IMG/VR virus record: IMGVR_UViG_3300021364_000055
Coordinates: 1-40,848 of that record
Source of the DNA: a virus
Direction: 5' to 3' (one strand)
Length of the DNA: 40,848 nt
Part shown: piece after piece, positions 7,778 to 39,966 of the stretch
How the letters are laid out: the number at the start of each line of letters is the position of its first letter
How positions within the stretch are numbered: position 1 is the stretch's first letter
Position numbers and translations under genes: made by a program
The notes under the pieces: generated by a model
Database searches by the model: none
What the model saw: the letters and a program-made list of their open reading frames with translations, nothing else
What the model was told of the DNA's origin: nothing

Positions 7778-10700
7778 GTGGCTTACAGAGCTGAAATTGA
7801 GATCGGCGTAAAGGGCGCGGAAAAACTAGCGGCGTTCCAGAAAAGCCTTAAAGAAGCTAATAAAGTTCTTGAGATTATTGATGGGTACAGCGATGTTTTT
7901 AGTGCCCCCGTCAACAGTCTAAAAAACTATACTAAAAATCTCCAAGAAGCAGCTAGAGCCCTTCAACTTGTTGAAATAGGTACTGAAGAAGAAACTACCG
8001 CCATCCGTAATTACGTCCAAGCAGCAGCACAAGCTGCAACTGTTCGTAACAGACAAAACAAACTTATGGATGAGGAGGCCCAAAAACTCGGTCTGCTCAG
8101 TCAAAAACTTCGAGAATATAACGCCGCCGGAGTTCCTCCAACACAACGGGGGGCGCAGACAACAATGACTGGCGCGTACCTTCGCGGCCAACCCAGCTTT
8201 GGGCCTGAAACTGCACCGGACTTTAACCCTGTAGCTGCCGCTGGAAGGGCTAGAGCATCAGGTTTAGCTGCGGAGGCTATTAAAAAAGGGCAAGGAGCAC
8301 AGGAAGCTATTCAAATTATTAATGAAATAACTGAATACCAACGCCGCAAATTTATTGACATTACTAACACAAAAATACAACTCACGCAAAAACAATTAGA
8401 CGCAGAACTTGATAGCATTCAAACGGTTTTAGATGCTTCTATAAGGGCGGACAAACAAAAACAGGCAGATTTTGATCGTAGGTTAAGCGCTAAAACAAAA
8501 GCAAATACAGAGGTTGAAGACTTATATTTAAAAATCAGGCAAGACAGCGAAAAACGCATTGAAGCTCAACGTAGAGCCGGGTTAGAGCGCGTTAAAAAAC
8601 TTGAACAAGATATAGCTAGGCAAAGAGAAGAAAGGGCTAGACGGCGCAAAGACGCAATTAGTAGCGGTATCATTGGTGGTGCGTTTCCACTGTTGTTCGG
8701 TCAAGGATTAGGCAGTTCTGTAGGCGGCGGGTTAGGAGGATTTGCTGGTGGTTTGGCTGGAGGGCAATTAGGTTTTGGACTTTCTCTCGTAGGCACGGCT
8801 CTTGGAGCACAGTTTGACGCACTCGCACAAAAAGCTGGTGATTTAGGTAAAGCACTAAACCCTTTAACCGCAGATATTGATTTACTAATTGAAAGTACAG
8901 GACTTGCAGGCACAAAAACTGGTGCTTTAATTGCCTCATTAGAAGAATACGCTGGTGCCCAAGAAGCACAGAAGGCAGCCACAGAACAACTAGCTGTAAT
9001 TGTCGGTCAAGATGGTGTTAATGCTTTAACTGAGTACGGAGAAGCCACAACGCGATTAGGTAATGAAGCTGCTAAAGCGTTTACGGCATTGTCTGCGGCG
9101 CTTGCACCTGCACTCGCAAGTATTGCAAACTTCCTAGCAACCCAGCTGGAACGTACCAGGGTAATAAGTAGGGTTGCAGTTAATACAGGCACAGGGGTTG
9201 CAGTTCGTGACGAGTTTAAGGGCGATAAAAACGTAACTAAAGCTGTTGAACAATTTAACCAGTTTAAAATTAGCGAAGAGGAACTCCAAAAAGTCTTACT
9301 TGAAGCGGGGCGCAAACGAGAGCAAGCTGAAAAAGCAGCAGCAGATGCAAGATTACAAGGCGTAAAAGGCTCTCAACTTGAAAACAAAGTTGCTCGTCTT
9401 AACCAAACAATACTTGAAAATAAAGTAGATCTTACTAACAAAGCAGTAGTAAACGCCAAAAAAGAAATACTCACTATAGAAAGAGGCGCAGAGCTGCTTA
9501 AAGTTTACAATGATCAAAAATTAACAGCTGCCGAAAAGGATCGCCGAATAAATTTAATCAATCAAAATTACATTAACGAGGAACTAAAACTTACAAATGG
9601 CGTAAACAAGGCGATTGAAAGAAAAAATAAATTAAATAGATCTGGGAATAAGGGGGCAAATAAAGCCGCACGTGAAAGACAAAGAGCTGAAGAGCTGCTT
9701 CAAAAATTACAGCAGCAGCTAAAGGCAACTAAAGTTACCGGAAGTTCAGAAGAAAAACGACTGAAAATTGAAACTGAATACTTAAACACCGTAAATTCTA
9801 TAGATAAATTAAAAGACAAAACTTATGATACAGAACTTAGATCTACCGCAGAAAGCATTAAGAAAAATAAAGAAGAACAATTAACTGCAAGACTTGCAGG
9901 TGAACGTACAGAAGCAATTCGGCAGGCCGTAGCACCTATTGTCAAGATTAGAGAAGCACAAGAAATAAGCGCAGAAAAAATTAAAGAATACAACAGGCTT
10001 CTCATGGAAGGCGTATTGCCGTCCGAAGCAGAAAGGATTAGCAGCTTTAACGAGCAAGTTCGGCTTTCTCTCAAACTAATTGATTTAGAGATTGAAAGAG
10101 CAAAAGCTGCTGGTTTAAATAGCACAGCGTTGCAAGAAGAACTTGAAAAACTTGAAGCACAAAAAGCTGCAATTGAAAGTGAAGCACTTAAAGGCCCAGG
10201 TGAAGCTGTTGGAACAACACCACGAGAAAAAATTGAAAGTCGAGTAGCAGAACTTCGAGGAGAACTAACCGAACTAGCTAATCTAGGAAACTTTGCAGTT
10301 ACCGTCGCTGACAATATCGGTGGTGCGTTCCAATCTGCATTCCGCGACGTAATTACTGGAAGTAAATCAGCGCAAGAAGCACTGGCTGATATGTTTGGCA
10401 ACATAGCCGAAGCTTTTGCTTCTATGGCAGCAGAAATTATTGCAAAACAACTAGTTATGATTGCTTTGCAGGGCATACTCAAAGCCCTAGGTGCCGTTTC
10501 TGCCGCAGCTGCCCCATCTGCTCCTGTACCTAAAGACGGTGCAGCCTTCCAAGGAATCGGCACTAGTACTTTAGATAGTCTTGGAGGTGCAGGACCGATT
10601 TCTGATCCAAAAGGTTTATTCACTCCGCCAACACTTGTATCTGGAAGAGCAGCCGGTGGCCCTGTTGCAAATAACGTTCCTTATCTTGTTGGTGAGGAAG

Positions 10701-22452: not shown

Positions 22453-24459
22453 GTGGCAAACGTCAAGATTGATGATCTAGTTGCTATCACCGATCCGGCA
22501 AGCACCGACGTGTTGCCGATTGTCGATCTTCTGGCGGACGTAACTAAAAAAGTAAGCATTGAGAACATCCTCAAGAACGCAGCTAACGGCACGGCTGCCG
22601 CTCCATCGCTTACTTTTGATACCGACCAAACCACGGGAATTTTTCTAGAGAGTGTTTCCGAACTAGGTTTTTCAACAAATGGCGTGGGACGACTGTATAT
22701 CGACGAAAACGGCAACGTCGGTATCGGTACTGCAACCCCTACTCAAACGCTGGATGTTGTAGGCACTGGTTCGTTTTCCGCAGGGCCGCTGACTGTAGGC
22801 GGTTTTAACGTTGTAACTGTCGGTGACACAGGAACCGTCACCAGCACGATGATTGCTGATGGAACAATTGTTGACGCTGATGTAAATGCAAGTGCTGCTA
22901 TTGGGCTCAGTAAGTTGGCGACAGGTGCACTGCCTACTGGTATCACTGTTGCGTCAGCGAATATTGTTGACGGCACGATTGTTGATGCTGATGTTAATGC
23001 AAGTGCTGCTATTGGATTGAGCAAACTTGCAACTGGTGCTCTTCCTACGGGTATTACGGTTGCATCTGCAAACATTGTTGACGGAACAATTGTTGATGCT
23101 GATGTCAGTGCAACGGCTGAAATTGCAGTTAGCAAGCTTGCGAACGGCACTGCACGTCAACTCCTGCAAACTGACGCTGCTGGAACGGGCGTTGAATTCA
23201 CCAGCAATGTTGACGTCCCTGGAACGCTTGACGTAACTGGTGTAGCTGTATTCGACAACAACGTTGGTATTGGTACGAATAGTCCTGCAGCAGTTTTGCA
23301 TCTCAACTCTAGTGGAAGTGCATGCAGTCAAGTAATCTCTTGCGGCACCAACACCGGCACAAGTAACATCTATTTTGGAGATTCTGACGGCTTCTTCCGT
23401 AGTTCAATTAGCTACCTTCACACAGATGATGCACTTACGTTCAGTGCCAACGGAATTAGCAATGAGGGTATGCGTATCGATTCCGACGGCAACGTTGGCA
23501 TCGGGACAAGTAATCCTCAAAGCCTGTTGTCTGTCCAGGACAATCTTCAATCACCGCCAACATCAACTTGGAACACAGGGTCGCAATTCACAGTTGGTGA
23601 TGCTGCTAACCAGCTTGCATTTGGTCGGTCAAACGTTTCTCCTTTCCCGCTTTGGATGCAAGGAAGGGCTTCAAACAATGCTACAAGAAGCATTTTAATC
23701 AATCCCGTCGGCGGCAACGTTGGTATTGGGACGAGTAGTCCTGCGCAAGAATTGGAAGTATCGGGAACCGCTCCAAGAATAAGAATCACGGATAACGATA
23801 CTGCTGCTGCTTCTGGGTCAAGTTCTTTCCTTGAATTTTATGGCAGTGACGCAAGGGCTGGGATCATCTATACAGACGCAACTGGATTAAACATTTGGGC
23901 TGACTCTACTGGTGGAGGCAATCTTGCTTTAAGGACAGAAACAAGCGAAAAAATGCGCATCGATTCCAACGGCAACGTTGGTATTGGGACGAGTTCTCCA
24001 ACTGGAAAGCTAGAAATTGCTGGCAACAGCAGCTCGCAAGAAATTCGATATGGCGACGGCACTACAACTGGATACTTTATATCAATAACAGATGTTGTTC
24101 GACCCGCAGCCGACCAACTCATCCACCAACATGATTTCCGCTGGAACGGTACTTCAGTTGCACAAATTAAAGCGCTGACGGGTGATGATATTATCAACAA
24201 AGACAACGGTTATTTAACATTTGAAACCAACAATGGCGCAGGCTTAAATGAAAGAATGCGCATCGACGGCAACGGCAACGTTGGTATTGGGACGAGTAGT
24301 CCTGGGGAGAAGTTAGAAGTTAATGGCACAATCAAAGCCACCGACATCAATTTCACTGGACTTGCTACCTACGCTGACGACACTGCCGCCGGTACTGGTG
24401 GTCTTGTTGCTGGTGATGTTTACAAAACCTCTACTGGCGAACTGCGCATCAAGCTCTAA
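22453..24459 (+). CDS. Tail fibre with GNVGIGT repeats
   Basis: This 668-residue protein starts with GTG at 22453 (ANVKIDDLVAITDPASTDVL, a typical fibre-attachment N-terminus). Residues about 135-245 carry three copies of a 37-residue repeat around NIVDGTIVDADVNASAAIGL, matching a 111-bp DNA period. Six GNVGIGT.(S/T)P motifs (first at about residue 80, last near 610) occur between beta-rich segments and are the signature of long cyanophage fibres. MRIDS(D/N)GNVGIGT blocks alternate with structural domains. The C-terminus (TYADDTAAGTGGLVAGDVYK, then TSTGELRIKL) resembles the trimerising end of cyanophage fibres. It is probably a side tail fibre. Confidence 0.78.
   Translation: MANVKIDDLVAITDPASTDVLPIVDLLADVTKKVSIENILKNAANGTAAAPSLTFDTDQTTGIFLESVSELGFSTNGVGRLYIDENGNVGIGTATPTQTLDVVGTGSFSAGPLTVGGFNVVTVGDTGTVTSTMIADGTIVDADVNASAAIGLSKLATGALPTGITVASANIVDGTIVDADVNASAAIGLSKLATGALPTGITVASANIVDGTIVDADVSATAEIAVSKLANGTARQLLQTDAAGTGVEFTSNVDVPGTLDVTGVAVFDNNVGIGTNSPAAVLHLNSSGSACSQVISCGTNTGTSNIYFGDSDGFFRSSISYLHTDDALTFSANGISNEGMRIDSDGNVGIGTSNPQSLLSVQDNLQSPPTSTWNTGSQFTVGDAANQLAFGRSNVSPFPLWMQGRASNNATRSILINPVGGNVGIGTSSPAQELEVSGTAPRIRITDNDTAAASGSSSFLEFYGSDARAGIIYTDATGLNIWADSTGGGNLALRTETSEKMRIDSNGNVGIGTSSPTGKLEIAGNSSSQEIRYGDGTTTGYFISITDVVRPAADQLIHQHDFRWNGTSVAQIKALTGDDIINKDNGYLTFETNNGAGLNERMRIDGNGNVGIGTSSPGEKLEVNGTIKATDINFTGLATYADDTAAGTGGLVAGDVYKTSTGELRIKL
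22870..23150 (+). repeat. Tandem 111-bp repeats inside the fibre gene
   Basis: The sequence around GTTGA(C/T)GCTGATGT recurs at 22870, 22981 and 23092, a spacing of exactly 111 bp (37 codons). Copies one and two are nearly identical; copy three is diverged and partial. Length changes by recombination would stay in frame. Confidence 0.85.
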
Positions 24460-30766: not shown

Positions 30767-31030
30767 TTAAGAAGAACTATCCACGGGTTTAATTTTGATT
30801 TGCTTACGCCGTTTTTCTTGAGTAGTGCCCCATTTAGGTATTACAATTCGATAATGTACGAGGTCAAGAGTCTGTTCCGGGTACTGCACTGTGTACCACT
30901 TCCACTCGCAATCATCACACATTCTGTGACGAGCAATGCGGCCATCTGTAGTGTAGTACGTGTTTTTAACCCAACTTCTAGTGTTGCCACATTTAGGGCA
31001 GGGTGGCCGTGGGTAATTTAATCGTTCCAT
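30767..31030 (-). CDS. Zinc-ribbon protein, 87 aa
   Basis: The start is the ATG at 31030, overlapping the sigma factor stop (TGATG). An N-terminal zinc ribbon is formed by PPCPKCGNTRSWV and HRMCDDCEWKWYTVQ, four Cys in two CxxC pairs spaced about 25 residues. A short basic C-terminus (TQEKRRKQIKIKP) follows. Such four-Cys ribbons bind nucleic acids or RNA polymerase and are frequent in phage transcription factors. Coupling to the sigma factor suggests joint expression and perhaps a joint role in transcription control (inference). Confidence 0.74.
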   Translation of the reverse strand: MERLNYPRPPCPKCGNTRSWVKNTYYTTDGRIARHRMCDDCEWKWYTVQYPEQTLDLVHYRIVIPKWGTTQEKRRKQIKIKPVDSSS

Positions 31031-31881
31031 CAAACTGAATCAATTTTTCGGAAGTACATCCGCAGCTTGCGGACAGAGCTATGAAAGATATTGCGCGTTC
31101 GTTCCCTTGATATTCCAAGCTCTTTGGAAATTGCCTGGAACGTCATTGGAGGTTGCGTACCAAGGCCAAAAGAGCACTCGACAACATACCTTTCCCTAGG
31201 TTGCAGTCTAGAAAGCAACCCTTCAATCTTTTCCAAATCAATGCCCCAACAAACGTCATCAAACACGTCTAAGTCAGAAGAAACACTATCGATAAGCATT
31301 ACATCGTCATCTGTGCTTTTGACACGAGCATCAAGGCTTATAGCGTCATTGGACCTATCAAGGTACTCCTGTAACCGCGACGGATTGATCTTGCAGTATT
31401 CAGCGCACTCTTCAATGGTGGGTTTGCGGTGGTGCGTATTCTCAAAAACCGGAGTCCAGTTGCGCAGCTTAGTCAAAAGCTCAACTGCGTGGGACGGCAA
31501 CCGGATAACGCGGTCATAGGTTGCCAGGTAACGTGTAATACTTTGCCTAATCCACCAATACACATAAGTTGAAAGCGCATAACCACGCTCTGGATCGAAC
31601 TTTTTAACGCCATGAGCGAGACCCATCGTGCCTTCCTGCACCAAGTCAGAAAGCTCACTGCGCTTGCACTTATTTGTGTACCGCTTGGCAATGGAAACCA
31701 CCAACCGCAAGTTGCAGTTGACAAGTTTCTGGTACGCACGCTGCCCCCGCTTGATGGTTCGCGGCGAAGGGTTTTCACCCTCGATCCACTCTTTTACTTG
31801 ACGCGCCAGGATGATTTCTTGGTCTTTGGTGAGCAGCGGATACCTACCGATGTCTCTTAAGTAGGTGCTAAAACTCTCCAT
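31030..31881 (-). CDS. Phage-encoded sigma-70 family RNA polymerase sigma factor
   Basis: This 283-residue protein contains region 1.2 (SFSTYLRDIGRYPLLTKDQE), region 2 with the core-binding and -10 recognition helices (LVVSIAKRYTNKCKRSELSD, LVQEGTMGLAHGVKKFDPER, LSTYVYWWIRQSITRYLA), region 3 (HRKPTIEECAEYCKINPSRL) and region 4.2 HTH (MTFQAISKELGISRERTRNI). It is a full sigma-70 type with all DNA-binding regions, resembling cyanobacterial group 2/alternative sigma factors, and has no region 1.1. It probably directs host RNA polymerase to phage promoters. The YLRDIGR.PLL start is typical of cyanobacterial proteins. Confidence 0.93.
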   Translation of the reverse strand: MESFSTYLRDIGRYPLLTKDQEIILARQVKEWIEGENPSPRTIKRGQRAYQKLVNCNLRLVVSIAKRYTNKCKRSELSDLVQEGTMGLAHGVKKFDPERGYALSTYVYWWIRQSITRYLATYDRVIRLPSHAVELLTKLRNWTPVFENTHHRKPTIEECAEYCKINPSRLQEYLDRSNDAISLDARVKSTDDDVMLIDSVSSDLDVFDDVCWGIDLEKIEGLLSRLQPRERYVVECSFGLGTQPPMTFQAISKELGISRERTRNIFHSSVRKLRMYFRKIDSV

Positions 31882-32740: not shown

Positions 32741-34669
32741 TCAGTGAATCTCCGACCAACGTTTACCGATAGACGGCTCAGCAAGCGGCGGAATATCGCC
32801 TAGCCACATTGCTTCCGCGTCCTCCATTATTCGTTTTAGCTTCGCGGCCCATTCCTCAGCCTTGTCTTCCTTGACAAGCAACAAAATTTCGTCATGGACG
32901 CAGGCAGCAATTTTGGCCTCGACCTCACCAACTTTCACCAGCTCAGCCCATAAGTTGCCAAGAGCGCATTTCAAAATGGCCGCACCAGCACCTTGGATCG
33001 GCGTGTTGCACCTCACCGTCAGCCGATTCATTTCACCCGGCAAAAACCGCCGCATGTTCGACTTGGGGATACGAATGTGCGCCCATTGATTGCCTTCAGT
33101 CGCTTCAGCAAGACGGCCATTTTCCTGCTGCCACGCGGCAATGCCTTGGTACGTGCCAAGCCACTGCTTACGAATTTCAGCTGCCTCTTCAACCGGCATA
33201 GTGACGCCAACACCGGCTGCGTAATTCCGCAAGCCATTCGCACCACTGCCGTAAAGCAGGCCAAAGTTTGCTGACTTAGCAATCTGCCGACTGCAACCGA
33301 TGGCTTCAGCTGTAACCGTGTGCAGGTCTTCGCCGTCCTGGAACGCCTTGATCATGCGCTCGTCTTTCGCGACCGCAGCAGCCAGTCGAAGTTCCATCTG
33401 ACCAAAATCAGCATCCACAAGAAGCCAACCATCAGGAGCCTCCACACACTGGCGGAAGGCTTCGTCTCTTGGGATTTGCTGGTTGTTGGGTTTGATGCAG
33501 GACATTCGGCCACTTTCGGCTCCGAGCTGCAAATAGCTGGCACGAACAAAACCATCGGAATCAAGTTTTTCAAAGATTGAATCCACCATTTGGCGGCGTT
33601 TCTCAGCTTTCTTCCAAGCCAAGTAGGTCTGAACAACGTGGTGATCAGCGGCATAAGCCTGGAGCGCAACACGACTAGCACTCGGTTTGCCGGTCTTTGC
33701 GTCGATTGGTTGCTCACCGAGCAAGGCGGTGAATTTCTCCAGAAGCTGTTTTGGCGAACTGATATTAAAGCCCTTATACTTTTTGGTTCCCAACCTAATG
33801 CTGCCTTCATCCTTGGGTCGTAAGTTAAATACCGCTGGGGAAGTCTCAATATCTTCAATTTCCTTGAACCATTTATCTCTGAGTACGTCATCATTACCCA
33901 TCTCCGTGAGTTTCTCTTTGAGATAAGCCATTCGACCATCTGTTTCTCTTGGCAACTTGTGTTCCGCCGGAAGGGCTTCGTCAAGTTCGTAGAGAAAGTC
34001 CTTAGAAAGTGCAGCAATGTCATGCTCGTAATCCTTACGAAGTTGTTCAAGGCTGGAACGATTCCACGGCAAACCTGTGCGCCACATGTGGGCCATTGCC
34101 GGAAGAGCTTTGCATTCGAGCGAGTAAGCAGGATCTAAACCTGCGGCAGCAATCTTTCCAGGAAGGATTGCATCAAGCTCCAGCAAGATCTCAACGTCTT
34201 TAGCAGCATATTCAAGCTGCTCTTTCGAGAGGACTGGTGCGCCCCAATCAGACGCCTGCTGTTCTTTTGAGATGTCTTTATCTAAATACCGCTTAGCTAA
34301 GTGGGCTAAGCCGTGTTTCAGGTTTGGGATGCCGTTGTTCAGCAGCTTGCTAGCAAGCATGGTGCAATAAATGCGGCCATACGGCTTAAACCCGCTTTCC
34401 TGCAACCAAGCCAAATCGAAGACGGCATTATGCGCGATCCAGTGACGGTCACCATTCTCAAAAAAGCTATCGAGTTTGTGGTTTGCTTCTTCGTCGCAAT
34501 CAAACAGGTCGATGACAACGATTGACTTAGTCGATTCAGCACCTAACTGAAGCAACCGAAGCTTTCCAATTTCAGGCTGTAGCTGGAGCGTCTCTGTATC
34601 AAACGCAATTGTGGTGGCACGAAAAACCTTGTCGAGATGCTCGACGCCGAAATACGTTGTGTAGGTCAT
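32741..34669 (-). CDS. DNA polymerase I-type (family A) with 3'-5' exonuclease
   Basis: This 642-residue protein has a DEDD exonuclease domain (FDTETLQL, D24 and E26; AHNAVFDLAWL near 79-89; EYAAKDVEILLEL near 153-165) and a family A polymerase domain. Motif A is VDADFGQMELRLA (418-430), motif B RQIAKSANFGLLYG (461-474), and motif C VHDEILL (591-597). No 5'-3' exonuclease domain is present, as usual in phages. F469 aligns with E. coli F762, a residue linked in viral ecology to fast, mostly lytic replication. It is probably the replicative polymerase, working with the prim-pol/helicase encoded upstream in the same leftward block. Confidence 0.95.
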   Translation of the reverse strand: MTYTTYFGVEHLDKVFRATTIAFDTETLQLQPEIGKLRLLQLGAESTKSIVVIDLFDCDEEANHKLDSFFENGDRHWIAHNAVFDLAWLQESGFKPYGRIYCTMLASKLLNNGIPNLKHGLAHLAKRYLDKDISKEQQASDWGAPVLSKEQLEYAAKDVEILLELDAILPGKIAAAGLDPAYSLECKALPAMAHMWRTGLPWNRSSLEQLRKDYEHDIAALSKDFLYELDEALPAEHKLPRETDGRMAYLKEKLTEMGNDDVLRDKWFKEIEDIETSPAVFNLRPKDEGSIRLGTKKYKGFNISSPKQLLEKFTALLGEQPIDAKTGKPSASRVALQAYAADHHVVQTYLAWKKAEKRRQMVDSIFEKLDSDGFVRASYLQLGAESGRMSCIKPNNQQIPRDEAFRQCVEAPDGWLLVDADFGQMELRLAAAVAKDERMIKAFQDGEDLHTVTAEAIGCSRQIAKSANFGLLYGSGANGLRNYAAGVGVTMPVEEAAEIRKQWLGTYQGIAAWQQENGRLAEATEGNQWAHIRIPKSNMRRFLPGEMNRLTVRCNTPIQGAGAAILKCALGNLWAELVKVGEVEAKIAACVHDEILLLVKEDKAEEWAAKLKRIMEDAEAMWLGDIPPLAEPSIGKRWSEIH

Positions 34670-36804: not shown

Positions 36805-37503
36805 TTACCGAGTCTCTTGCTCGGCGCGTTCAGCTTGTTGCCTAGTTAAACGGTTTTGTGCAATTGTGTAGTTAACTGTATCTTCTGTTTTGTAAACTTT
36901 AGAACCAGTGCGATCAAAAATACTTTTACAAACAGGGCATTTAACTAAATTTTCTTCACGGTCTTTTACTTTAACCACGTCGCCGTTTAAAATACCTGAA
37001 AAAGCGTTAAAAGTTCGGGCGTACAATGCTGAATACTTAACCGGAAGTATAGTTTTTCGCTCTTCTAATTTACTAAAAATTTTGTGATCTTCATAATTTT
37101 CCGGAAACAAGTCTTTAATAGGTACGGTGTTGACATAGTGAACTATGTGACCACCAGTCAAACTTTTGTAGTAAGGAAGCCTTAGTAAATCAGGGTCGTT
37201 GATAATCTTAGTTGCGCCTACAGCAAATAAAAAGTAGTAAAAAGGCTGTGCTTTAGTGTTTCTTGGTTTTACGCTTTGTTGCATAGGAGTATCGGAATAA
37301 ACGTTATTAGCATGTTCTCTACCAGCAAGCTGTTTGATATAGCCGTACAAAAGACCTTTGTTGTCCTTTTCGACCCAGTCATACTCTTTGCGTAGATGAT
37401 GAAAGAGCGGGTCGGGAAAATTTTTGAAGCTAGACACCCAGTCTGGGTCTCTCCACTCCGGAGGAACAATGTACTGGCCTGCATGGAAAGTAAGTTTGGT
37501 CAT
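36805..37503 (-). CDS. Hypothetical protein with C-terminal CxxC, 232 aa
   Basis: The product opens MTKLTFHAGQYIVPPEWRDP, followed by PDPLFHHLRKEYDWVEKDNK, then a central domain and a C-terminal part with VKCPVCKSIFDRTGSKVYK, a single CxxC pair typical of half a zinc site. I do not recognise a family. The gene is clearly AT-rich compared with its neighbours and uses many A/T-ending codons, so it may come from another source or be evolving quickly. A hairpin and CTACATT-type motif precede it (37521-37556). It may be a host-takeover protein (speculation). Confidence 0.72.
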   Translation of the reverse strand: MTKLTFHAGQYIVPPEWRDPDWVSSFKNFPDPLFHHLRKEYDWVEKDNKGLLYGYIKQLAGREHANNVYSDTPMQQSVKPRNTKAQPFYYFLFAVGATKIINDPDLLRLPYYKSLTGGHIVHYVNTVPIKDLFPENYEDHKIFSKLEERKTILPVKYSALYARTFNAFSGILNGDVVKVKDREENLVKCPVCKSIFDRTGSKVYKTEDTVNYTIAQNRLTRQQAERAEQETR

Positions 37504-37569: not shown

Positions 37570-39966
37570 TCAACCCCACATGTTCCAAGACTGATCACGA
37601 GACTCATTCAACTCATCCTTGGTGCGTTCTTCCTCCCTCGCGCGGGGATATTGCTCAAGCTGTCCACCCTGGGCACTTTCCGCTCCAGCACTGGATTCTG
37701 AGGGTGGACACGGTGCCGTTTCAGCAGGGGGTTGTCCACCCTTAATTGGTTCAACGGCTTCAAGGGTGGACACTTCTCGCTGTCCACCCTGGTTGTCCAC
37801 CCTCACATCCGTTCCAGCAGAAGGGGTTTGCTTACGGTGGACACCTCCCGGCAAGGCCCCGCACGCGAGAACTGCTTGGTACGTCTTGTTTTTATATCTG
37901 GCGTCTCCAGTAGAAACTTCAAGAGAAACCTCAGTAATCAACCCACGCTTGGTAAGCCGCTGGAGCGCCTTGCCAATAGCAGCAACCTTGCCGCCCACCA
38001 ACGGATCAGCGTTGAGCTCAGTCTTAGTTGCCGTCCGTGGGTGAATTACCCGTAGCCGCTGCAAAACACGGTCAGTGATGCTGCTTGGAGCGGTGTTGGC
38101 CGAATCAACCTCAGGCGTGTAATCGCTAATGGAAAAGCTGAGGTCGTCTTCCATCCGCATGACCAGCTGAGTGCCTGAGCGCCCAGAGCGGCTTTTCTCA
38201 ATGGTGATGAGCCTGCAGTGGGACGGAAGGCTCCCAATCGAGTTATCGGGCTTCTTAAGTGACCAAGTCTCATCTACAGCGTCACGGATGGCTGAGGTGC
38301 CCCTAAAGCCGCCCTGCTTGTTGGCGTGGTGAACGATGAGAATTGTGGTCGCCGGGAACAGCACGCCGTTGTTGCGGGTCAGCCAGTACAGCGGCGTAGC
38401 GAAGTCCGACTTGTTCTCGTCAAAAGCACGGCCACCGGAGCAACCGATCAGCGAGTCGATCACCACCAGCTTCGGCTTGATGTCGTGCATCAGCTTCACG
38501 AACTGCGCGTACCGCTGGAGCGCCCAATCGGTCTGAATGAACGTCTCGCTATCTGCCGGGTAGTCAACCTCCTGAAGCTGCTCTTTGAGCTGCACCAGCG
38601 GCTGATCACCATTCAGCAGCAACACCGGACCCTTCTGGACTGGAACGGGCTTACCCCTGACGATGAACGGCGCACCAGTCGCAATGTGTTTCGCAATAGT
38701 CCAAGCCGACATGGACTTGCCATCACCGCCAGCGCCATAAATCAGCACCACAGAGGGATGCGGCAACACATCAGGAATTAAGTAGTTGCGTTCCTGATCG
38801 CTATCCATCAAATCTTGAGCACCCATAAGACCCTTGGCACCCTCAAATTGAATCTGATCAACAATCAGTTTCTCCAGCGAAAGCTGATCTCGATAACCGG
38901 CCTGGAGCGCCAAATTATTGAGGTTGTAATTCATCTCAGCCGGGTTATCCAGCTCCAGATATTTCTTGGCCTTTTCAATGACCTGCTCAAACGGCAGAAC
39001 AGCTTGACGGAACGCAACCGCCATCTGGTTGATCTCTTCAATCACCTGCTTGGCGGCAGGGTCATTCACGAAGCGATTTCTGTCTGGGTCGTAGTGATCA
39101 GCCAGCTGAATCAAGCTGCCGAGACCAAGACCACCGCCTGACTTGAATCCTGACTCCCAGCGATCAGCGCATGGGTCGTTCTTTTGCCAGTCATCGGCAT
39201 ATTCATCGTCACGCTGCGACCACTCACGCCACAGGTCAAGCCCCTCTTCATTGGGAAGCTCAGAGTGAATCATTGCGCCAATACGCCACCACTGGTCTTC
39301 ACTGCCGCGTCCCTGCGGCTGAATAACCGCCAAGCAGTTTTTAACGATTAGGCAAAGCTCCTCGGTGGAGCGCATTCCATAACGAGGATCCTTTTTGCCT
39401 TCGTCAGTCTTCTGCTTGCCGCGAAAAGACTCCTTCATATATGCCAGAAGCCACTCAGGAGCCTCTGGAATGGCCTCAAGGTCGCCTTCCTGCGTATAGA
39501 CACCCTGATCCTTGTAAGCGCCGCCTACAAGCCCCTGACGGCCCCACAGCACCTCCCAGCCCTCTTTGCTGGCACTAAGACTCAGGCCATCAACCTCACC
39601 CCAATACTCCCGTGGGACGTAGAAGAGATATTTAGCCGCATTTTTCTTGGCTGACTTAACGACCGGCGCAGCCTTGAGGTCTTGGCCCCACTTCTTTTTG
39701 AGCTGGTAAAGGTTGGCGTCAATGTCGAGGATGACCAAGCCATTGCTGCGTGGTCCGGTGAAGACACCAACGGCCTTGAACTCATCAGGATTCCGCTCAA
39801 TGTGCAGAGCAGTCTCAGCAGGAGACCAATCTTCGTGGTGCGTCTTACCGAGAGGCGATTTACCGCAAGCCTCTTTACCGGAAGGAAGTTTGACGCCTTT
39901 GGCGTAGATCGGGCAGGTAGCCCATGCGCTTGGAAGCGAGCGAACGAAAGCAGGAAGCTTCGACAT
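37570..39966 (-). CDS. Prim-pol primase fused to RepA-like helicase
   Basis: This 798-residue replication protein has a prim-pol domain (residues about 1-180, with GLVILDIDANLYQ giving the DxD metal site at 81-83 and the PVVKSAKKNAAKYLFYVP stretch), then a PriCT-like linker (about 200-295, WWRIGAMIHSEL and GLGLGSLIQLADHYDP). A RepA/DnaB-like ATPase follows, with Walker A GAGGDGKS (411-418), Walker B LVVIDSL (500-506) and IVHHANKQGGFRGTSAI (544-560). A winged-helix-like domain is at 630-700. The last ~100 residues are low-complexity and contain several QGGQ and related segments. At DNA level they carry the TGTCCACCCT cluster. It should prime and unwind DNA at the phage origin. Confidence 0.92.
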   Translation of the reverse strand: MSKLPAFVRSLPSAWATCPIYAKGVKLPSGKEACGKSPLGKTHHEDWSPAETALHIERNPDEFKAVGVFTGPRSNGLVILDIDANLYQLKKKWGQDLKAAPVVKSAKKNAAKYLFYVPREYWGEVDGLSLSASKEGWEVLWGRQGLVGGAYKDQGVYTQEGDLEAIPEAPEWLLAYMKESFRGKQKTDEGKKDPRYGMRSTEELCLIVKNCLAVIQPQGRGSEDQWWRIGAMIHSELPNEEGLDLWREWSQRDDEYADDWQKNDPCADRWESGFKSGGGLGLGSLIQLADHYDPDRNRFVNDPAAKQVIEEINQMAVAFRQAVLPFEQVIEKAKKYLELDNPAEMNYNLNNLALQAGYRDQLSLEKLIVDQIQFEGAKGLMGAQDLMDSDQERNYLIPDVLPHPSVVLIYGAGGDGKSMSAWTIAKHIATGAPFIVRGKPVPVQKGPVLLLNGDQPLVQLKEQLQEVDYPADSETFIQTDWALQRYAQFVKLMHDIKPKLVVIDSLIGCSGGRAFDENKSDFATPLYWLTRNNGVLFPATTILIVHHANKQGGFRGTSAIRDAVDETWSLKKPDNSIGSLPSHCRLITIEKSRSGRSGTQLVMRMEDDLSFSISDYTPEVDSANTAPSSITDRVLQRLRVIHPRTATKTELNADPLVGGKVAAIGKALQRLTKRGLITEVSLEVSTGDARYKNKTYQAVLACGALPGGVHRKQTPSAGTDVRVDNQGGQREVSTLEAVEPIKGGQPPAETAPCPPSESSAGAESAQGGQLEQYPRAREEERTKDELNESRDQSWNMWG
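37661..37843. repeat. Seven iteron-like repeats TGTCCACCCT within the helicase gene
   Basis: Copies of TGTCCACCCT on the plus strand are at 37661, 37733, 37781 and 37794. Reverse copies (AGGGTGGACA) are at 37701 and 37763, and a reverse 9/10 match is at 37834. Orientation is + - + - + + -. The motif is translated in different frames on the coding strand (QGGQ, CPPS, EVSTL, GVHR), so selection acts on DNA rather than protein. The spacing from 13 to 40 bp and the place inside the replication gene resemble iterons, for instance the lambda O gene origin. It is the best origin candidate in the window. Confidence 0.75.

Follow-up and report, generated by a model that had tools for sequence, protein, structure and literature searches.

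A phage primase–helicase gene whose 3′ coding region carries probable iterons for its own winged helix

In the viral record IMGVR_UViG_3300021364_000055, a predicted replication gene ends in a stretch of low complexity in which one decamer recurs in both orientations. This raises the question of which protein reads the repeats and whether replication starts at them. The window analysed here is the whole 40,848-nucleotide stretch of DNA, and the decamer TGTCCACCCT is clustered between its positions 37661 and 37843. The left part of the cluster contains sites 1 (37834–37843, − strand), 2 (37794–37803, +), 3 (37781–37790, +; optional in relatives) and 4 (37763–37772, −), and the right part contains sites 5 (37733–37742, +), 6 (37701–37710, −) and 7 (37661–37670, +). 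The two are separated by a central gap (37743–37762) that varies in length among relatives, with a mirror axis near 37752. All sites are exact except site 1, which reads TGTCCACCGT on the gene strand and matches at nine of ten positions. This confirms the preliminary description, which had reported seven decamers within 183 bp, six exact and one imperfect, in both orientations and several codon frames. The copies are read in three frames, and the peptides that they encode (RVDN, QGGQ, KGGQ, VSTL, CPPS and GVHR) are unrelated.

Short repeated sites clustered beyond chance, the pattern by which an iteron origin is recognized, are thus present in the window. No exact copy lies outside 37661–37843 in the whole 40.8 kb record, where position 8444 is the sole further site with one mismatch. 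Allowing up to one mismatch, chance alone would yield 1.87 sites across the window, and the observed number of eight was reached in none of 100 shuffles. The repetition score of the tail is 7.2 compared with a null maximum of 4.4, and it was matched by none of 300 codon shuffles. The cluster is situated about 90–275 nt ahead of the stop codon of the gene, in its final third of a kilobase.

The gene itself (37570–39966, − strand; 385 relatives in viral contigs), which we call the initiator gene, encodes a 798-residue primase–helicase that ends in a winged helix followed by a low-complexity tail. Residues 15–172 (39451–39924, −) form a Prim-Pol domain of the archaeo-eukaryotic primase type (Pfam PF09250, E = 5e-5; PHROG 1156, DNA primase), which is followed by a PriCT-2 domain at residues 209–289 (39100–39342, −; PF08707, E = 1.4e-12). 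Residues 384–552 (38311–38817, −) are a RecA-fold helicase domain (Pfam AAA_25, E = 1.4e-19) that is closest to RSF1010 RepA. The AlphaFold model of this domain has a pLDDT of 82 and its top PDB match is again RSF1010 RepA (PDB entry 1nlf, E = 4.8e-10), a fold that predicts a RepA-like hexameric helicase core.

The proposed iteron reader is the winged helix at residues 630–698 (37873–38079, −), and the decamers are housed in the low-complexity tail that follows it. Family searches gave no clear match for this region, and the weak Pfam matches are to TrmB, MarR and GntR. The AlphaFold model, which is of moderate confidence (pLDDT 66.5 overall and 77–80 in the core blocks and helices), has the order H1–H2–H3–strand–wing–strand, with residues 661–674 as the predicted recognition helix. 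Its matches in the PDB include winged helices of the MarR, Fur and PerR type (E = 0.005–0.05).

Relatives were taken from the best 80 of the 385 viral-contig loci for one query and from further search sets. After removal of duplicates the comparison comprised 124 distinct genes, including that of the window, and the proteins of the relatives are 50–89% identical to that of the window. A GACA-type repeat consensus was called automatically in 121 of the 124 genes, at the same place just after the winged helix. The three remaining genes are degenerate: L055 and L058 retain three to four TGGACA sites, and L091 retains none. Scores above the 95th percentile of the codon-shuffle null were obtained for 95% of the sampled genes (n = 42), and the 7-mer core belonging to each locus is found at 14.2 per kb in the tail versus 0.12 per kb elsewhere (118 times denser). 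The motif itself differs between lineages. It is AGGGTGGACA in the window group and AAATGCGACA in L075, and other lineages carry AGGTGGGACA, CAATGGGACA, CAATTGGACA, CAGGTGGACA, AGGCTGGACA or CAGTGGGACA. Each locus keeps to one site type, with TGGACA to GGGACA ratios of 398:18 and 24:398 in the two classes.

The array is not confined to coding sequence, as 87 of 776 sites lie past the stop codon. In L015–L018, L093–L105 and L145–L147 the array spans the stop codon, with sites going on for 60–100 bp beyond it. As sites continue beyond the stop codon and the geometry persists while motif and peptide change, it is the DNA array and not the peptide that selection maintains. The earlier suggestion of iteron-like sites in the primase–helicase gene, conserved as DNA and not as peptide, is strongly supported by the 124 genes. 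In the relatives, the tail peptide changes while the array stays and its motif is rewritten in each lineage; the pattern that would have spoken against this suggestion, a kept peptide with lost decamers, is absent. Among cultured phages no nucleotide relatives of the 36.8–40.8 kb stretch were found, and a search by protein returned only five distant records. Three of these records, S-CBS4, MW202711 and Vibrio phage 1.210.O, are cultured or complete phages, and the 3′ ends of their distant helicase genes contain no array above shuffles inside the gene, the exception being one borderline AT-rich stretch downstream of the gene in Vibrio phage 1.210.O. The positive control for this scoring, P4 crr, reached 8.0.

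The spacings between neighbouring sites are constant across lineages: 41–43 bp for divergent pairs (−+), 28–30 or 16–17 bp for convergent pairs (+−), and 12–13 bp for an optional extra direct copy (++). On the gene strand, the array of the window reads − 42 + 13 + 16 − 32 + 30 − 42 +, that is, a module of 42/13/16 bp and its mirror-image counterpart of 30/42 bp on the two sides of the gap of variable length. Mirror symmetry is complete in L098 (43, 13, 17 | 52 | 17, 13, 43) and in L146 (43, 13, 17 | 75 | 17, 13, 43), and the mirrored fraction is 0.72 versus 0.40 after shuffling of spacings and orientations.

Next, every protein column was compared with the fifth motif base, which is either T or G, leaving out the columns that are encoded by the array itself. 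Mutual information with this base is highest for residue 665, located in the predicted recognition helix, followed by residues 648 and 695. The fifth base switches nine times on a tree built from residues 1–610, and in tree-controlled independent pairs residues 695, 648 and 665 are the top three of 567 columns. The winged helix supplies eight of the top ten columns, yet it makes up 11% of all columns. For residue 665 alone the sign test gives a median p of 0.03, a value that is limited by the eight pairs available.

Residue 665 is a glycine in the window (codon 37972–37974, −); across the genes, Gln, His or Gly at this position pairs with TGGACA sites and Arg or Lys with GGGACA sites. TGGACA accompanies Gln in 33 of 33 genes, His in 14 of 15 and Gly in three of three, and GGGACA accompanies Lys in seven of seven and Arg in 61 of 65. 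With Thr included in the first group, Gln, His, Gly or Thr goes with TGGACA in 51 of 52 genes, the remaining gene being L075 with TGCGACA, and Lys or Arg goes with GGGACA in 68 of 72. The four genes that have Arg665 but not GGGACA are L039, L047 and L056, which are true exceptions with TGGACA, and the siteless L091. Column 691, in the wing, ranks first for the third base, which is A or G and belongs to the flank; here Lys or Arg accompanies A (accuracy 0.973; 7.5 of 8 pairs). This flank signal rests mainly on residue 691, because the winged helix holds only three of the top ten flank columns.

Across the sequences compared, reader and array change together between lineages. Between the window and L002, protein identity is 96% for residues 1–570 and 71% for the winged helix, with the motif changing from GTGGACA to TGGGACA. 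The corresponding values for L143 and L144 are 94% against 73%, with motifs GGGGACA and TGGGACA. L075 is the sole lineage with an altered core (TGCGACA), and its recognition helix reads IHKALNRL in comparison with IRKSLQRL. In this lineage, residue 669 is a candidate for a second contact.

We propose that the decamers are iterons for the winged helix of the protein in whose gene they lie and that they form a self-contained origin in the 3′ coding region of the initiator gene, and we put the probability of this reading at roughly three in four. The covarying sequences argue strongly that the winged helix binds its own array, and a start of replication at the array is likely. In this mechanism, priming by Prim-Pol, unwinding by a RepA-like hexameric helicase and DNA reading would be united in a single chain, the winged helix of which would bind the decamers as iterons within the gene that encodes it. 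Several initiator molecules would occupy the two mirror-image modules, the fixed module spacing of which would place helicase rings on either side of the centre, facing each other or apart. The duplex would then open at the centre and the attached primase would start both strands. Physical binding, the loading of two helicases and initiation at the array are what we infer here. The preliminary description had likewise called the array a candidate origin; its iteron-like sites are supported, but the GC-skew switch that it had looked to gives no support, as there is no consistent turn at the array in the window or in related genomes. An AT-rich unwinding element was also not found in the gap or flanks (AT content 0.48 in the gap versus 0.46 in the tail).

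Bacteriophage P4 is an instructive comparison. P4 alpha (X51522) is a primase and helicase in a single polypeptide that reads its origin through a C-terminal winged helix (PMC4234260), an organization like the one that we propose for the initiator described here, and repeats in both orientations lie at the 3′ side of the gene in both cases. In the X51522 sequence, crr is situated directly 3′ of alpha and contains TGTTCACC octamers, the type 1 repeats, in both orientations. This repeat is one base from TGTCCACC of the present array, a resemblance that may be convergence because no homology to P4 was found. In P4 the repeats occur at two places, neither of them within the gene, whereas here they form one cluster inside the initiator gene. 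The P4 primase is of the bacterial type (PMC4234260), whereas the present chain has Prim-Pol and PriCT-2 domains and a RepA-like RecA-fold helicase (AAA_25); no sequence relation to P4 alpha and no homologous bacterial-type primase were found.

The array could instead be bound by the initiator as a control or cis-helper region (copy control or handcuffing, like P4 crr), with replication starting elsewhere. Because P4 has both crr and ori this is a real alternative, if an unlikely one: crr directly 3′ of alpha and the separate ori carry the same repeats about 4.6 kb apart, and the lack of an AT-rich element in the gap or flanks also speaks for it. It is weakened because a second cluster of the own motif, as P4 has in an ori away from the gene, is absent from the window and eight related genomes, of which G004 is uninformative as its array lies at the edge of the examined stretch. 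The two-module design, in addition, resembles the origins of Gram-negative PICIs (PMC6092414).

It is improbable that another phage protein reads the sites, be it a repressor or regulator that uses them as operators or a protein for which they are a partition (centromere) site. Operators and centromeres also contain multiple short inverted and direct sites, but here the site type tracks residues of the initiator's own winged helix, and the sites form a single cluster that occupies the 3′ end of the gene and not the vicinity of a promoter.

Part of the association between sites and winged helix is linkage, that is, joint inheritance by recombination, because wing and array adjoin. That the whole association is due to joint inheritance of a recombining 3′ block, with repeats spread by gene conversion and not read by the winged helix, is very improbable. 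Winged helix and array do switch together between otherwise near-identical genes, and columns 710 and 712, which adjoin the array, also rank high. However, the model places residues 665, 648, 691 and 695 in the recognition helix, helix 2 and the wing. These best columns, which are predicted to contact DNA and lie as far as about 190 bp ahead of the array, outrank 710 and 712 beside it; furthermore, the geometry is constant across lineages with different motifs. A hairpin in RNA or DNA at the 3′ end of the gene (a terminator or mRNA structure) has a negligible chance of being the main function and is rejected because of the spacings across relatives: convergent pairs can pair, and the inverted pair with an 8-nt spacer at 37763–37790 that had been singled out as a possible hairpin is present, but the equivalent pair is 28–30 nt apart in most relatives, pairing distances vary (16–17 or 28–30 nt), the 12–13 nt step between direct copies and the 42 nt divergent spacing are conserved too, and sites are found beyond stop codons. 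The DnaA box TTATCCACA includes TCCAC, which the window motif has in common with it; DnaA boxes were considered for this reason and rejected, as other lineages carry TGTCCCA or TGTCGCA.

As a probable origin with iterons inside the gene of its own initiator, the present array resembles that of lambda O (PMC5043065, PMC7466680). Lambda O has neither helicase nor primase and belongs to initiators that work together with a loader for host DnaB, whereas the present initiator has its own RecA-fold helicase domain. The lambda origin is placed midway along O and includes an AT-rich region, whereas here mirror-image modules lie in the 3′ tail and such a region is lacking. SaPIs and PICIs share a helicase initiator with a C-terminal origin reader and two iteron sets (PMC7581432, PMC6092414). 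In SaPIs the origin comes immediately after rep, and at the origins of Gram-negative PICIs an AT-rich region is invariably bracketed by two sets of iterons (PMC7581432, PMC6092414). Their iterons are thus downstream, noncoding and placed around AT-rich DNA, and their primase is separate, unlike the fused chain described here; in the window two sets are present, but the gap is not AT-rich and the array is inside the gene. RSF1010, the RepA of which is the best fold match of the helicase domain, distributes priming, unwinding and iteron binding over RepB′, RepA and RepC as three separate proteins (PMC4234260) with an origin that is not inside the gene, whereas here a domain set for all three activities is found in one chain. 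ORF904 of pRN1 likewise joins Prim-Pol, helicase and a C-terminal winged helix, with a required origin element 3′ of the gene (PMC4234260), but its helicase is of SF3 type and a 100-nt stem-loop takes the place of iterons.

Each element is therefore already known singly. In the literature searched, which was mostly outside subscription journals, no account turned up of a fused chain that has mirror iterons within the 3′ coding region of its own gene together with dozens of covarying specificities. The distinct new replicon type that had been suggested is rather a variant of known initiator-plus-iteron replicons. Within this frame we lean towards a widespread, undescribed class of one-gene phage replicons, in which primase, RepA-like helicase and reader are fused and mirror iterons lie in the 3′ coding region of the same gene. 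Reader and array would pass between phages as a single specificity module, and the outcome would be a natural recognition code and possibly incompatibility types.

If the proposed origin reading is true, hundreds of uncultured phages gain an identifiable origin and initiator. The approximately 120 natural reader–site pairs would be a test bed for DNA reading by winged helices and would inform how a replicon can change its specificity and stay functional, and mirror modules of fixed spacing would predict that two helicase rings are loaded. In another phage–satellite pair, iterons are known to be the target of an origin-specific attack (PMC8263062), and an attack of this kind would be a reason for the rapid rewriting of the motif.

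The phage group is plausibly cyanobacterial. The best matches of the portal protein are to cyanophages at 33–36% identity, which makes the cyanophage assignment of the preliminary description plausible. Relatives L106, L107, L108 and L109 are on contigs binned as Saprospirales, Planctomycetota, proteobacterium and Microbacteriaceae genomes; these are probably phage contigs placed in bacterial bins and are therefore not host evidence. No terminal direct repeat of at least 15 bases was found at the ends of the window (positions 1 and 40848). The record may be incomplete, and other elements could therefore lie outside it. Directly downstream of the initiator gene is a 232-residue ORF (36805–37503, −) with no Pfam or PHROG match. 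A family A DNA polymerase gene (32741–34669) is close to the gene of a phage-encoded sigma-70-type factor (31030–31881, −) that has regions 1.2, 2, 3 and 4, and a 111-bp tandem repeat is present in 2.6 copies (22852–23141) within a tail-fibre-like gene.
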